The position numbers were made by a program, and so were the translations under genes. 64,000 nucleotides of DNA from Aliterella atlantica CENA595 (GTDB lineage: Bacteria > Cyanobacteriota > Cyanobacteriia > Cyanobacteriales > Chroococcidiopsidaceae). The notes under the pieces are model-generated. The model saw only the letters and a program-made list of their open reading frames with translations, did no database searches and had not been told where the DNA came from. Each line of letters opens with the position of its first letter. Within the stretch, counting starts at the first letter, position 1. The stretch is taken from assembly GCF_000952155.1 (NCBI RefSeq), contig NZ_JYON01000009.1:62001-126000 (forward strand). The letters run 5' to 3'. Shown piece by piece: positions 30,704 to 49,125 of this stretch.

Positions 30704-31192
30704 CTAGCTTAGAGCGCTAATTGCGTAGTCGATGTAGGTGTTGGTTTGGTTTGCTTCTTGACCGCTCAAGCCATGATTTGCTTTGATGTGGTTTAAAGCT
30801 TCGATGTACCAGCTACCAGATAGCTCGAAGGAACGGTTGATTTCATCCAATCCAGCAATTAGGTACTCGTCCATTGGACCTGTACCACCAGCAATTAGAC
30901 AGTATGTAACCATGCGGAGGTAGTGACCGATGTCGCGAGCGCACTTAGACTTACCGCGAGAATCAGCAGCGTACTGAGGTCCTTGCATTTGAGTTGTGTA
31001 AGGAAACTTCTGGTAAACTGCGTTAGCTGCACCGTCGATTAGCTTTTGCGAGTTTTGAGTCAAAGAACGAGCAGCGTTTAGACCTGCATTTGCTTGTGCA
31101 AATCTACCGTTAGCTGATTGTAGTTCTGTATTGCCCAAAAAACGTCCTTGGGTATCAGCAGAGGCGATCGCTTCGGTGATTGGTGTTTTCAT
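30704..31192 (-). CDS. cpcA: C-phycocyanin alpha subunit
   Basis: A 162-residue phycobiliprotein alpha subunit, the exact usual length. The chromophore cysteine is Cys84 in [11 protein letters not shown]; phycocyanobilin is attached there by CpcE/Cpc[17 protein letters not shown] and [19 protein letters not shown] are conserved. CARDIG and [17 protein letters not shown] mark it as CpcA, not as the phycoerythrocyanin alpha subunit, which as I recall has CVRDID. It lies 68 bp after cpcB, the common spacing, with its own GGGAGAAA ribosome-binding site. Assembles with CpcB into the trimers and hexamers of the phycobilisome rod on the thylakoid surface. Confidence 0.97.
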
Positions 31193-31260
31193 TTTCTAGA
31201 TTTCTCCCTTAAACTTGTTTTGCAATGTATTTTTTCAAGCGATAAATTAACTTGAATTAA

Positions 31261-31785
31261 TTAAGCAACAGCAGATGCAGCGCGGTCGAAGTAGCTTGCT
31301 AGTTCAGACATGATGGCACTGCAATCACCTTGAACAATTCCAGGAGCTTTAGGATCGTTAGCGATATTGATCGCGATGTCCTTCATCTTTTGCACGCCAG
31401 AAGCGGTAGAACCACCAGGTACGCCAAGTGCTTGATATGTTTCACGCAAACCATTCAAGCAGCGATCGTCAAGAACGCTAGCATCACCAGCCATTAATGC
31501 GTATGTAACGTAACGCAAGATGATTTCCATATCGCGCAGACAAGCAGCCATCCGACGGTTTGTATAAGCATTTCCGCCTGGTTGGATTAGTTGAGGCTGA
31601 TCTTCAAACAATGCGCGAGCAGCATCAGAAACAATGCTAGAAGCATTTGTGCTGATTCGGTTTACTGCGTCGATCCGCTTGTTACCTTCTTTGACCATAT
31701 TCGACAGTGCATCAAACTGATTGCCGCTCAAAAATTCACCTTTTGAATCAGCTTGAGAAACTACCTTGGCGAATGCGTCTAACAT
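31261..31785 (-). CDS. cpcB: C-phycocyanin beta subunit
   Basis: A 174-residue phycobiliprotein beta subunit, first gene of the cpc operon. Chromophore cysteines are Cys82 ([12 protein letters not shown]) and Cys155 ([11 protein letters not shown]); Asn72 in GGNAYTNRR is the residue methylated in the family. It is two residues longer than the usual 172 because of a small insertion in the [13 protein letters not shown] loop just before the second bilin site. AGGAG at 31796-31800 lies 10 nt before the ATG. The sequence fits CpcB generally; PecB is similar, but the neighbouring alpha subunit and the absence of pecE/F make CpcB the better call. Confidence 0.96.
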
Positions 31786-44114: not shown

Positions 44115-44256
44115 ACCTAGCAAATTAATAGCAGAAGTGTCAACAGCGATCGCCAATTTAAAAAGGGAAAGTCGAACAACCGTAATTAGCAGACTTTTCA
44201 GGTTGTCCAACAGTTTGATGTATTAAATCTTGCTAGTGCAATGTCACCTCGATTGC

Positions 44257-44287
44257 ATCTGCGTCTATCTGCGTTCATCTGCGTTCG
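44257..44287. repeat. Dispersed ACGCAGAT repeat, three 10-bp units
   Basis: Three 10-bp units on the plus strand: ATCTGCGTCT, ATCTGCGTTC and ATCTGCGTTC, then G. Related AACGCAGATAAA sequences occur at 48928-48946 and 51568-51588 in the opposite orientation. These are a dispersed repeat family; this copy lies 13 bp beyond the stop of the multicopper oxidase gene. Confidence 0.8.
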
Positions 44288-44299
44288 TACTCTCTAAGT

Positions 44300-47200
44300 T
44301 CAACAGGTATTTCTCACCCGCATAATCCCCCACAATCCTTGTTCCACATCATACTTAAGCACACCACTACGATACATATAATCTCCAGGTGTTTTATTGG
44401 CAGTGAAATGATAAGTTTGAGCAAAGCCAGAAGTAACCCCAGAAGTAGAAGACGTTTCTGGACTTTTTTCACCCAAATATTCCCACTCCTTCCAGGAATG
44501 ACCGTGTAAAGTAAAACTATGGTTGCGGGGCTTATCGCAAGCGCCAACTAAATGTAGTTTGACGTTAGCTTCAGGCTTGACTTTGAATACAGGCGTAGAG
44601 GGCGTAAATGCATAACCCCGTGCATGGCTACTAGGTTCGCTTCTGTAGTTAAATCCCTTTAACCCTTGATCTTCAGTATCAGGTCCATCTTCGCCAACAT
44701 CGCCAGGAATATCCCCAATTGGTAGCGCTGGATTACCGTGTAGAAAGTATCGCAATCCATTTTGCACGAGCAAGACCATTTCTTCAGTCTTATTGTGAGT
44801 ATATTTGTGATAGATTGTGGCTCTAGCTCCATGCCAACACACAGCGTTAGGCACAAGTGCAGCAGTTGTTGTATTATCAGCAACCGCGTAGGGGATGGTA
44901 TTGGGATCTTCTATGACTAAAGCACCAATTAGACCGTGATGGCGATGATTGCGAAAATCTGCCATATCTTGGAGTAAAACAGCCCCAACATCGCGATCGG
45001 CTAACCAGTAGTATGTTCGAGATTTTTCGCCTTTTGGCTCTGCCTCTGAATTATCGACAGTAGAATTTTGATTGATGCCTACATTAGCACCATCATGTGC
45101 AATTACATCATAGGTCAGTAGGTCGGCATGAATAGAAACCTTATTAGATATCCTTCTCTCAGCATCATCGTGAGGTAATTCAGGCGCTAAAGGTTCTACT
45201 TCTAGTTCGTCAGGAATTTGATTTACTAATTCAATAGCTACCCATTCGCCTTGACGACAGCGCAGAACTAGCGGCTCATCGTCAGGAGTTGTAACTGGAT
45301 GACAACTAATTTCACCTGGCTCTGCCCATGCTACTAAATTAAAAACTAAGCCAAATGGGTCTTTAAGGACAGGGCTATAGGGAATGGTTTTCGCTTTTGC
45401 TACTACTTTAAAACGACGACATTGCTCTAACGGTGGGGGACAAAGTGGTTGGGGCGGTGTATAGTCTGCCATCAACGGTGATGGTTTATGACTTGCGTAT
45501 GAATTAGGATCGTGGGCGCGAATAATTCCCCAACAACCCAGCCATAAATCTTCAGCACTTGAGTATTTCCATAGATAATCGCCAGCGCCATAATTGCGAT
45601 CGAGGTTGAAGGAAAAAGCCTCAGATATTCCTAATGTCTGTTGATTGCGTAGGGGAGAATTTTTATCTTGCCAAAACCTCTGCCAGCGCAAACCATGCAA
45701 TTGAAAACTATGTTGCTCTTCATGAGAACCCTGTACTAGACGCAAGCGTACGGGTTCGCCTGGTAAGGTATGGAAAACAGCCGTATTGGGATCGCCATAT
45801 TGGAAAGGTTTTGAAGCTTCGCTACCATGCTCGTCAGCGTTGATAAAAAATTTCTTTGAGTTAAACCACTCGCTAGGATCGTTTGGGCGCTCGCTTAGAG
45901 GTTCGCAACGATAGTTTACTCCAAACACACCATTATCATCGTGAGAATCCTGCATATTTGGCGGTTCCAAGGGCATTCCATAGGTAATGTTGATTTTTTG
46001 GAGGATTTTTTTGGGGTTATCTTTTACTTCATAGAACGCTTGAGCGACAAAGTTCTGTGTTATTTGGGCGTTACCATGCGCGATCGCCCCCATATTATGC
46101 CCTGAATGTGGATTTGTAGTCGCAGCTTGCTTAAATAGAGGAACCCAATCAGCATTACCAAAACAGAATTCTCGATAGGCTTTTTCTTGCCCCTGCTCTC
46201 GATAGCGAATTACCGCACTTTGACCAACTAAGATTTCTTGAGATGGATTTTTAGGATCGTGAAAAGTTGCGCCTTCAGGTTCTACCAACAAAGCACCAAA
46301 TAAACCATGTTTCTGCCGATAGTTAGCAAACAGGTGATCGTGAGTAAAAATTGTGCCAAATTCTTCATCAGCCCACCAACGATAAACTAACTTTTTACCA
46401 AAGCGCGGCGCACTCATGTAGTTCCAACCAGTGCTAGCTCCGTCTGAACAAATTGGGTCAAATTTGACAATGTGAACGTGCAAACCGCACTCACCTCGAT
46501 AGCTAGCGAATTCTAGACAATTGCTCTCAATGCCTTTAGGAAAAGCACTATCGAAGGGCGTTTCGGCAATATACCTTTCCAGACGATTGTGCAGAGTCAA
46601 TTGCATTACTTCAGTCTTACGACAGCGTAAAAATAAAGGCTGTTGCTTAGTTGGCTCAATAGTTACTCCCCGACTTGCCACTACTTGTCTGGCTCGTTCT
46701 GGAGTTATATGCGGATCTTCAGCTTGCAGGCGATGAGTAGCGTGGTGAACCGCTTCGTCGAGAAGTTCGGAAAAAGTTTGGATGCCAGGATCTTCATCGG
46801 CTAATACATACAAATGTCCGTGAGGGTCCCACCACCCATAGTCGTTATATTTAATCGGTGTCATCAGGACATCGATATTGTGTTTGACTGTCTGAGATTT
46901 AGCAATTTTATGCAAGCTTTTATCCCTGTCTGGATAGGCAAAAGTTGTAAATAATTCACCAGGTCGAGGATCGTGATTGAAGGCGTTAAGTTCTAATTGC
47001 GTAGGCTGACGATAGTCGTAATCTGTTACTGGCAAACCTTCAAAGGTATCTTGTTTGTTTTGCCGCTTATGCCAAGGTGGTATATATGACTTTTGCCCAA
47101 CTTCTCCAGCAATAAATAAAGGATAACCAGGATGCGAAGGAGTTGGTTCGGGTGGAGCTTCGCGATCTGGTAGCGGCACTAATTTATGTATAGGCGTAAG

Positions 47201-48682
47201 GTCAGGATAACGCCCTAACTGACGGATGATTTGATTTTTTGCTCTAGTTTTTCTAATGCGATCGCCAATTGCATTAATTGCCGCTAATTCTGCTGGCGTT
47301 AATTCCTTCCCTGTTCTACTGTGAAACAATGCTCCATCTATACCTGCTTGCAGCTTGTCAAAAGTCCTAAATATTCCCCACATCCCATGATGAAAATGCG
47401 GATACAGATGGCAGTGCCAAATTACATCGCCTGGAACCATTTGCCGATTCCCCGCTCCGTAAAAAGGCACAATTGTATAACCTACTTGGGGACTGATTGT
47501 AATTGCATCGATGATGTTGGAGTCGCGATGGAAGGGAATCGCGTTCCATTCATATACGTGGAGGTGGAAAACGTGAGTTTCTTTCACGCCAGCATGAACT
47601 AAGCGAATCCGCACAGGATCGCCTAAATAAGCTTTGAAAACTGGCGTGCAGGGGTCGCCAAATAACCAGCTTGAGTGATGTTGTTCTTCATTGACTACGA
47701 TATTATGGGGATCGATTTCCCCATCCTTCATCTTTTTCCAAAGCTCTCGTTCTCTAGAGATCATTGGTTCTGCTCGATAGCTAACAGGCATCAAAGAGCC
47801 TTCTGTATGCTCGTGCATTAATTCTGCTTGCGAAGCGTTCGGGTCATCGCAAGGATTAGTTTCTAATGGTGTGTGGGGAGGAACCCATTCTGGCTCGTCG
47901 TGAAAAAAGATGACAAATTCTCGAAAAGATGCTTTCGGTTCGGGATATTCGCTAGTTAGCGATTCAGGATTGTTGGCGTTGGGATAGGGTGCTAGTTTAC
48001 CTTCTTGCTTGAGTGTTTCTAATTCCGCCTGCGATCGCTGATGCACGTCTGCATATAAACCACTACTTAGCAATCTTCCTGTTTCTGGATCTGTCCAACG
48101 CGCACCACTAGGTTCGACAACTAAAGCGCCAAAAAGTCCATGTACATTGGTTCCTCGTTCGTCGCCACGAAAATCGCCAGCATCGTGAAAGACAAATACT
48201 CCTTCGCGATCGCACTGCCAAACAAAAGACTTTTCTTTTCCACAATCTACCAGGCTAGATTGATTTTTGCCGATGTGGCTGCCATCATTGTTTGCGTCAG
48301 TACCAGGACCAACTAAATGAATTCCAACTGGACGATTTTTTATTTCGTTTTTTAAATTTATAGTAATAGTATCCCCTACACTTGCGCGTAGCACCAAAGG
48401 AACAATTAAAGGGTGAGGTTGCCTAGCTTTTTCTTGAGTGTCGGGAAGCCATTCTTCAATCCGACGAGTATCTCCAGTTAGATCGTAAGTAAGAATTAGC
48501 TCCTGTTTTTTCCTCGCTAATTCTTCCTCATCCAGCTTGCCCGATTGAACGTCTTTAATATAGTTAATAATATCTTGATGTTCTTGCAATACGTACATCA
48601 AACCATTATGGTCGTGGTCGCCGTATCTGTTGAACCATAGAGTTACTGATAAAGCTACTACATCGTATTTGATGTTTTTCAT
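44300..48682 (-). CDS. Giant six-domain multicopper oxidase (ceruloplasmin/MnxG-like layout)
   Basis: A 1460-residue multicopper oxidase made of three tandem modules of about 480 residues (R1 1-520, R2 560-1060, R3 1075-1460), each two cupredoxin domains. Marks repeated three times: HGLFGALVVEP-like (181, 792, 1249), YRxEP (302, 924, 1346), SFxLHGxxW-like (about 371, 992, 1389) and GxWGIxR (433, 1049, 1449). Copper motifs: L3 at His370/His373/His375 and L4 HCHLYPHFHHGM at 423-434 (T1 Cys424, axial Met434) in domain 2; L1 His735/His737 and L2 His781/His783 in domain 3. R2 and R3 have lost the T1 site. No signal peptide is seen. Start ATG 48682 has GAGGTGA upstream. It could oxidise Mn(II), Fe(II) or organics; substrate unknown. 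Confidence 0.85.
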   Translation of the reverse strand: MKNIKYDVVALSVTLWFNRYGDHDHNGLMYVLQEHQDIINYIKDVQSGKLDEEELARKKQELILTYDLTGDTRRIEEWLPDTQEKARQPHPLIVPLVLRASVGDTITINLKNEIKNRPVGIHLVGPGTDANNDGSHIGKNQSSLVDCGKEKSFVWQCDREGVFVFHDAGDFRGDERGTNVHGLFGALVVEPSGARWTDPETGRLLSSGLYADVHQRSQAELETLKQEGKLAPYPNANNPESLTSEYPEPKASFREFVIFFHDEPEWVPPHTPLETNPCDDPNASQAELMHEHTEGSLMPVSYRAEPMISRERELWKKMKDGEIDPHNIVVNEEQHHSSWLFGDPCTPVFKAYLGDPVRIRLVHAGVKETHVFHLHVYEWNAIPFHRDSNIIDAITISPQVGYTIVPFYGAGNRQMVPGDVIWHCHLYPHFHHGMWGIFRTFDKLQAGIDGALFHSRTGKELTPAELAAINAIGDRIRKTRAKNQIIRQLGRYPDLTPIHKLVPLPDREAPPEPTPSHPGYPLFIAGEVGQKSYIPPWHKRQNKQDTFEGLPVTDYDYRQPTQLELNAFNHDPRPGELFTTFAYPDRDKSLHKIAKSQTVKHNIDVLMTPIKYNDYGWWDPHGHLYVLADEDPGIQTFSELLDEAVHHATHRLQAEDPHITPERARQVVASRGVTIEPTKQQPLFLRCRKTEVMQLTLHNRLERYIAETPFDSAFPKGIESNCLEFASYRGECGLHVHIVKFDPICSDGASTGWNYMSAPRFGKKLVYRWWADEEFGTIFTHDHLFANYRQKHGLFGALLVEPEGATFHDPKNPSQEILVGQSAVIRYREQGQEKAYREFCFGNADWVPLFKQAATTNPHSGHNMGAIAHGNAQITQNFVAQAFYEVKDNPKKILQKINITYGMPLEPPNMQDSHDDNGVFGVNYRCEPLSERPNDPSEWFNSKKFFINADEHGSEASKPFQYGDPNTAVFHTLPGEPVRLRLVQGSHEEQHSFQLHGLRWQRFWQDKNSPLRNQQTLGISEAFSFNLDRNYGAGDYLWKYSSAEDLWLGCWGIIRAHDPNSYASHKPSPLMADYTPPQPLCPPPLEQCRRFKVVAKAKTIPYSPVLKDPFGLVFNLVAWAEPGEISCHPVTTPDDEPLVLRCRQGEWVAIELVNQIPDELEVEPLAPELPHDDAERRISNKVSIHADLLTYDVIAHDGANVGINQNSTVDNSEAEPKGEKSRTYYWLADRDVGAVLLQDMADFRNHRHHGLIGALVIEDPNTIPYAVADNTTTAALVPNAVCWHGARATIYHKYTHNKTEEMVLLVQNGLRYFLHGNPALPIGDIPGDVGEDGPDTEDQGLKGFNYRSEPSSHARGYAFTPSTPVFKVKPEANVKLHLVGACDKPRNHSFTLHGHSWKEWEYLGEKSPETSSTSGVTSGFAQTYHFTANKTPGDYMYRSGVLKYDVEQGLWGIMRVRNTC

Positions 48683-48927
48683 GGTTTATCACCTCAAAAT
48701 ATTAAGCTCGTTCTTTGCACAACAATTGTTGATGCATTAAAGTACGCAGCTAATGCACTCAAACAATGTATGAGTAGGGTCGAGCCAACTACAAAGTAAC
48801 GATCTTGAGTTTGTGACTATTACCTCAAGGCTACATCTTTTCTTTCCAGCAAAATGTTAGGTTTCGTTAAAAACATTCACAAAATTTACTTTCTGCCTGC
48901 AATGAGTAAAATGAACTTCTCGCATAA

Positions 48928-48946
48928 AACGCAGATAAATGCAGAT
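48928..48946. repeat. Dispersed ACGCAGAT repeat, two units
   Basis: AACGCAGATAAATGCAGAT on the plus strand, two imperfect units of the repeat found also at 44257-44287 (inverted) and 51568-51588. The first two copies bracket the multicopper oxidase gene. Confidence 0.7.
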
Positions 48947-49061
48947 TGAAATCTATGTGATGCTGTATTAGCGAAGTTAAGTAAAGCACTCTTATTATTT
49001 ATGCAAGAGGTCTAACATATAAAAATAGAAGCAAAAAGATATTTTGCTCCTACTCTTAGGA

Positions 49062-49094
49062 AAAGGTCAAATAATCGTAAAACTTCTGACCTTT
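49062..49094 (-). terminator. Possible terminator of the phosphoglucomutase gene
   Basis: Arms AAAGGTCA (49062-49069) and TGACCTTT (49087-49094), 8 bp perfect, with a 17-nt loop. On the minus strand the stem ends in TTTT and starts 31 bp after the stop. The T-run is short, so termination may be weak. A second AT-rich hairpin lies at 49030-49048. Confidence 0.5.
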
Positions 49095-49125
49095 GTATTT
49101 ACTTCTGCTATGGAGTTAGCGTTAC

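Follow-up and report, generated by a model that had tools for sequence, protein, structure and literature searches.

The window, by which we mean the whole 64,000-nucleotide stretch of Aliterella atlantica DNA that was analysed, encodes on its reverse strand a large multicopper oxidase with Pfam segments Cu-oxidase, Cu-oxidase_2 and Cu-oxidase_3. Its gene, modules and copper motifs are arranged as follows:

44300..48682 (-): MnxG-like six-domain multicopper oxidase gene, an open reading frame of 1460 aa with an ATG start
47303..48682 (-): module 1 (domains 1-2, residues 1-460), from inter-module HHalign, E about 1e-55
45473..46900 (-): module 2 (domains 3-4, residues 595-1070), from inter-module HHalign
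44303..45430 (-): module 3 (domains 5-6, residues 1085-1460), from inter-module HHalign
47558..47575 (-): L3 motif HVFHLH, with H370 (T1), H373 and H375, from motif scan and family alignment
47381..47416 (-): L4 motif HCHLYPHFHHGM, with H423, C424, H425, H429 and M434 (T1 and T3), from motif scan and family alignment
46472..46480 (-): L1 motif HVH (in HVHIV), with H735 and H737, from motif scan and family alignment
46334..46342 (-): L2 motif HDH, with H781 and H783, from motif scan and family alignment
45536..45568 (-): lost-T1 position of domain 4, KYSSAEDLWLG, residues 1039-1049, from HHalign to the HCH...M region of domain 2
44345..44377 (-): lost-T1 position of domain 6, MYRSGVLKYDV, residues 1436-1446, from HHalign to the HCH...M region of domain 2
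48688..48695 (-): ribosome-binding-site-like GAGGTGAT, shortly 5' of the oxidase ATG, read from the sequence

Because the three modules align pairwise (HHalign of module profiles; every pair at probability 100 and E about 1e-55), the oxidase is a true triplication, which bears out the three tandem cupredoxin-pair modules proposed in a first-pass annotation. The residue numbers given there for the copper ligands proved exact when the protein was scanned for motifs (H370/H373/H375, H423/C424/H425/H429/M434, H735/H737 and H781/H783), and the set of twelve (ten His, one Cys and one Met) is intact. Likewise, the reported order of L3/L4 before L1/L2 is real: L3 and L4, together with the sole T1 motif, lie in domain 2, and L1 and L2 follow in domain 3. 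Modules 2 and 3 have lost the T1 motif, as claimed, with KYSSAEDLWLG and MYRSGVLKYDV aligning to the HCH...M region of domain 2, and in every homologue aligned the HCH motif is absent at both of these positions. Single His remnants persist at the matching L1/L2/L3 positions of domains 1, 4 and 6, where domain 1 retains only GIHLV and FHDA, and domain 6 retains HSFTLHGH without HCH. A signal peptide is not evident, as residues from 3 onwards already match the starts of modules 2 and 3 (HHalign). We regard this anatomy as close to certain.

The active site is conserved well beyond this protein: all 12 ligands are kept in 14 of 16 aligned family members (the window protein included), and they are strictly conserved in seven of the eight members of the clade to which it belongs (support 100/100). 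As judged from the alignment, this ligand pattern is far beyond chance. Two homologues depart from it, one from Rubrobacter, in which Phe replaces the axial Met and the ligand order is otherwise kept, and one from Pseudonocardia, in which several ligands are lost. The former (L024) is encoded on a plasmid of Rubrobacter marinus, and a Phe at the axial Met position usually raises the potential of T1 copper. The latter, on Pseudonocardia plasmid pBCI1-2 (L016:5986-9756), lacks the HCH motif as well as the axial Met and one of the L2 His residues; this multicopper protein is probably inactive and is comparable to coagulation factor V. Over 15 homologues, the share of invariant columns is highest in domain 2 (13%) and lowest in domain 6 (0%), and three acidic residues close to the copper motifs (E368, D392 and D419) are invariant. 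Unexpectedly, domain 4 (45473-46225, residues 820-1070), from which the T1 motif is gone, has a set of residues, D845, R932, E988, H991 and E1021 among them, that is invariant in all 15 homologues whose active site is intact, and H991 occupies the old position of the T1 His in the alignment; this set may bind a metal other than copper or form a structural network.

Among solved structures, the oxidase best matches MnxG, the manganese-oxidizing protein of Bacillus spores (9BXA chain A; 560 bits, E 1e-166 with the single sequence), and a family profile of nine sequences lifts the match to 1361 bits. A comparison with MnxG had been offered in the first-pass annotation, and it was right: the motifs of 9BXA run in the same order, HVFHYH (L3) and HCHLYPAFGIGM (L4), then HIH (L1) and HDH (L2). 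The next-best solved matches are two-domain laccases, which cover only the L3/L4 stretch and score 26 bits. On the broad definition of an MnxG-like six-domain protein, the oxidase has the triplicated modules, the ligand placement and the whole-length homology. Against the NCBIfam MnxG equivalog NF041487, it reaches 262 bits and not the cut-off of 3100, with a model that spans 1894 positions and thus describes a longer type. At the position of H429, residue 340 of 9BXA is Ala and Priestia MnxG has His; this Ala probably marks an engineered T1 mutant of the construct and not a natural difference, matching what is presumably an existing H340A variant of MnxG. MnxE and MnxF are part of 9BXA and adjoin MnxG in Priestia, and searches of the Aliterella genome with the Priestia MnxE and MnxF sequences, the identity of which was confirmed, returned no convincing match, although distant partners could escape such queries.

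Based on homology to 9BXA, one T1 and one trinuclear site at the joint of domains 2 and 3 are supported for the oxidase. The three cupredoxin-pair modules would close into a ceruloplasmin-type ring in which, once loaded with copper, only one catalytic unit appears to survive. The T1 copper in domain 2 (H370, C424, H429, M434) would accept electrons singly from a metal ion, and the Cys424 / His423-His425 bridge would relay them to a trinuclear cluster with ligands from domain 2 (H373, H375, H423, H425) and domain 3 (H735, H737, H781, H783), where O2 would be reduced to water. AlphaFold models built on shallow, five-sequence alignments reached an unusably low pLDDT, 35 for residues 1-1060 and 32 for domains 2-3 (245-825).

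Among the homologues aligned, the closest are those of FACHB-502 (57% identity) and Oculatella (56%), followed by those of a Cytophagales MAG (52%), a Microvirga plasmid (51%), a Propionibacteriales MAG (48%) and Pseudonocardia (42%); Priestia MnxG is 41% identical, and distant homologues from haloarchaea, Sphingobium and Nonomuraea are at 30-33%. The first-pass annotation had suggested looking for its motif order in other genomes, and alignment recovers the same order in homologues from several phyla. In a tree of 16 sequences, the window protein falls into a clade of eight that is sister to Priestia MnxG with support of only 80/85, Priestia being the single Bacillus-branch sequence in the tree. 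Members of the MnxG-like clade are scattered over Cyanobacteria, Bacteroidota, Alphaproteobacteria and Actinobacteria, and are often plasmid-borne or near mobile genes, with a transposase (L010) and FtsK-like and Toprim-domain genes typical of mobile elements (L012, L015) among their neighbours; no relative was found in the viral contigs searched. The homologue on a Hymenobacter qilianensis plasmid (L015:5953-10154), near P-type ATPase and RND metal-efflux genes, is split across reading frames (about 325 + 1192 codons), reflecting a frameshift or sequencing error. Another, on a Microvirga ossetica plasmid (L014:6007-10251), has a cytochrome c gene and a CusA/CzcA heavy-metal efflux system as neighbours.

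Within its own phylum, the oxidase was seldom found: it was matched in one of 386 sampled genomes, a search of close relatives gave no match in the 59 other genomes covered (five congeners included), and long matches occurred in three genomes among 195 relatives of Oculatella, where the recovery of FACHB-502 and Oculatella indicates that the search works. Phycobilisome searches of the Aliterella genome gave ten matches, of which two fall on the oxidase contig, which shows that the host is cyanobacterial and that the gene does not lie on a stray contaminant contig; two phycobiliprotein genes occur at 30710-31767 of the window. The phosphoglucomutase gene and the genes to its right are conserved in congeners, and the left block (OYE, ADH, MerR) is found elsewhere in congener G308, far from the right block, such that the oxidase alone occupies the synteny junction (44117-49121). 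With the phosphoglucomutase gene 443 bp upstream and a MerR regulator about 215 bp downstream, the gene does not seem to belong to an operon, and no Mn, Fe or Cu transport genes neighbour it. A foreign base composition was also considered, but the gene is already native in this respect (43.8% G+C vs 42.6% for the window). The sparse distribution, the synteny junction and the homologues on plasmids or near mobile genes together argue that the oxidase was probably acquired horizontally, although it may instead have been lost in the congeners.

On sequence evidence, we consider it fairly probable that the gene encodes an MnxG-like six-domain multicopper oxidase, probably horizontally acquired, with a single T1/trinuclear unit and with Mn(II) as its most likely substrate. 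Because of the kinship to MnxG, Mn(II) ranks first among the candidate substrates, with Fe(II), the main alternative, or Cu(I) second, and we lean towards Mn(II) as the main one, which would yield Mn(III) or Mn oxides. Counted in favour, beside the match to MnxG, the conserved active site and the geometry of two-domain laccases, are two plasmid-borne relatives near heavy-metal efflux genes and the record of a Mn-oxide-forming cyanobacterium, whose enzyme was not identified (PMC6890756). Counted against are the missing MnxE/MnxF match in the genome, the low NF041487 score (262 vs 3100 bits), the lack of Mn, Fe or Cu transport genes nearby, the low AlphaFold confidence, and no evident signal peptide that would bring the protein to extracellular Mn.

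The same enzyme might instead oxidize Fe(II) or Cu(I), serving to detoxify metals or in their homeostasis, and act on Mn hardly or not at all: Fox1, a six-domain protein of Chlamydomonas that also has its trinuclear site between domains 2 and 3, is a ferroxidase (PMC3600357), plasmid homologues have genes for RND heavy-metal efflux and P-type ATPases nearby, and MnxE/F partners were not found. However, MnxG is the closest of the solved-structure proteins and no iron-uptake gene was found next door, so that we judge this alternative unlikely. An oxidase of organic substrates would account for the local matches to two-domain laccases over L3/L4, but these are weak beside the 560 bits for MnxG and reflect a shared copper motif only, and the six-domain enzymes so far characterised are mostly metal oxidases, which makes a laccase-like role improbable. 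That the protein is degenerate and inactive has a precedent within the clade, in the Pseudonocardia plasmid homologue, but is very improbable given its full complement of ligands, full-length reading frame and ribosome-binding-site-like sequence; as far as the sequence can tell, it is very probably a working oxidase. Least credible is a newly rearranged ceruloplasmin-type enzyme with a relocated site, as the first-pass annotation had it, because the motif order, although unlike that of ceruloplasmin as stated, is common to the homologues found, to 9BXA and to all bacterial six-domain proteins of one survey (Vasin et al., 2013; PMC3600357), is not specific to the window protein, and already contradicts such a relocation.

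One T1 site and one trinuclear site at the joint of domains 2 and 3, as the first-pass annotation placed them, are supported, but reading them as a novel relocation is not right. All bacterial six-domain proteins analysed by Vasin et al. (2013; PMC3600357) have the trinuclear site between domains 2 and 3 and a mononuclear T1 site in domain 2 only, and a 2/3 trinuclear site is likewise reported for the Chlamydomonas and Dunaliella ferroxidases. Because this order is shared by 9BXA and the proteins of that survey, what had been called permuted is a known family character, and the motif order of the oxidase is itself normal and previously described for bacterial enzymes of its type. The scheme proposed there (PMC3600357) starts from an ancestor in which three interfaces, 6/1, 2/3 and 4/5, were equivalent; ceruloplasmin retained the first of these and MnxG-like proteins the second. 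The His remnants of domains 1, 4 and 6 in the oxidase agree with such an ancestor, and retention of a different interface of the three-fold ring is a likelier origin of the domain 2/3 site than a move.

Of use here is the presence of an intact MnxG-like oxidase, apparently acquired horizontally, in a few cyanobacteria, and so in a host that makes oxygen and has a large Mn requirement. The gene is a concrete candidate for Mn oxide formation by cyanobacteria (cf. PMC6890756), and the clade offers a natural test of the need for MnxE/MnxF in Mn oxidation. Tentatively, this mobile MnxG-like clade may supply scattered cyanobacteria with a stand-alone Mn(II) oxidase that does without MnxE/MnxF, possibly with the old T1 pocket of domain 4 (D845, E988, H991, E1021) as a non-copper metal site.

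Of the known systems, Bacillus MnxG (solved with three MnxE and three MnxF chains) resembles the oxidase most: the two are homologous over nearly their full length, have the same motif order and a lone T1 site in domain 2, draw the ligands of the trinuclear cluster from domains 2 and 3, and show no obvious signal peptide. However, the oxidase has 1460 residues to about 1220 in MnxG, has eleven insertions of at least 8 residues relative to Priestia MnxG (identity about 41%), falls into a clade apart from the single Priestia sequence in the tree and, unlike the Mnx complex, comes from a genome without an MnxE/F match. The MnxG-like six-domain proteins of haloarchaea and of Proteobacteria and Actinobacteria share its order and ligand set, but at about 30-33% identity and on separate branches. 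Ceruloplasmin and hephaestin likewise have six cupredoxin domains as three pairs, but in them domains 1 and 6 share the trinuclear site and the T1 sites are in domains 2, 4 and 6 (PMC3600357), whereas in the oxidase the trinuclear ligands are not split between domains 1 and 6 and lie at 2/3, with T1 in domain 2 only. Chlamydomonas Fox1, compared by description, shares the 2/3 trinuclear site but is eukaryotic and has kept more T1 sites (PMC3600357). Two-domain (small) laccases also carry L3/L4 in domain 2, but form a trimer of separate chains, whereas the modules of the oxidase are fused and two of the three sites have been lost. In these laccases, domain 2 of each subunit builds a trinuclear site together with domain 1 of the following one, which is the same geometry as the 2/3 joint in a three-module chain.
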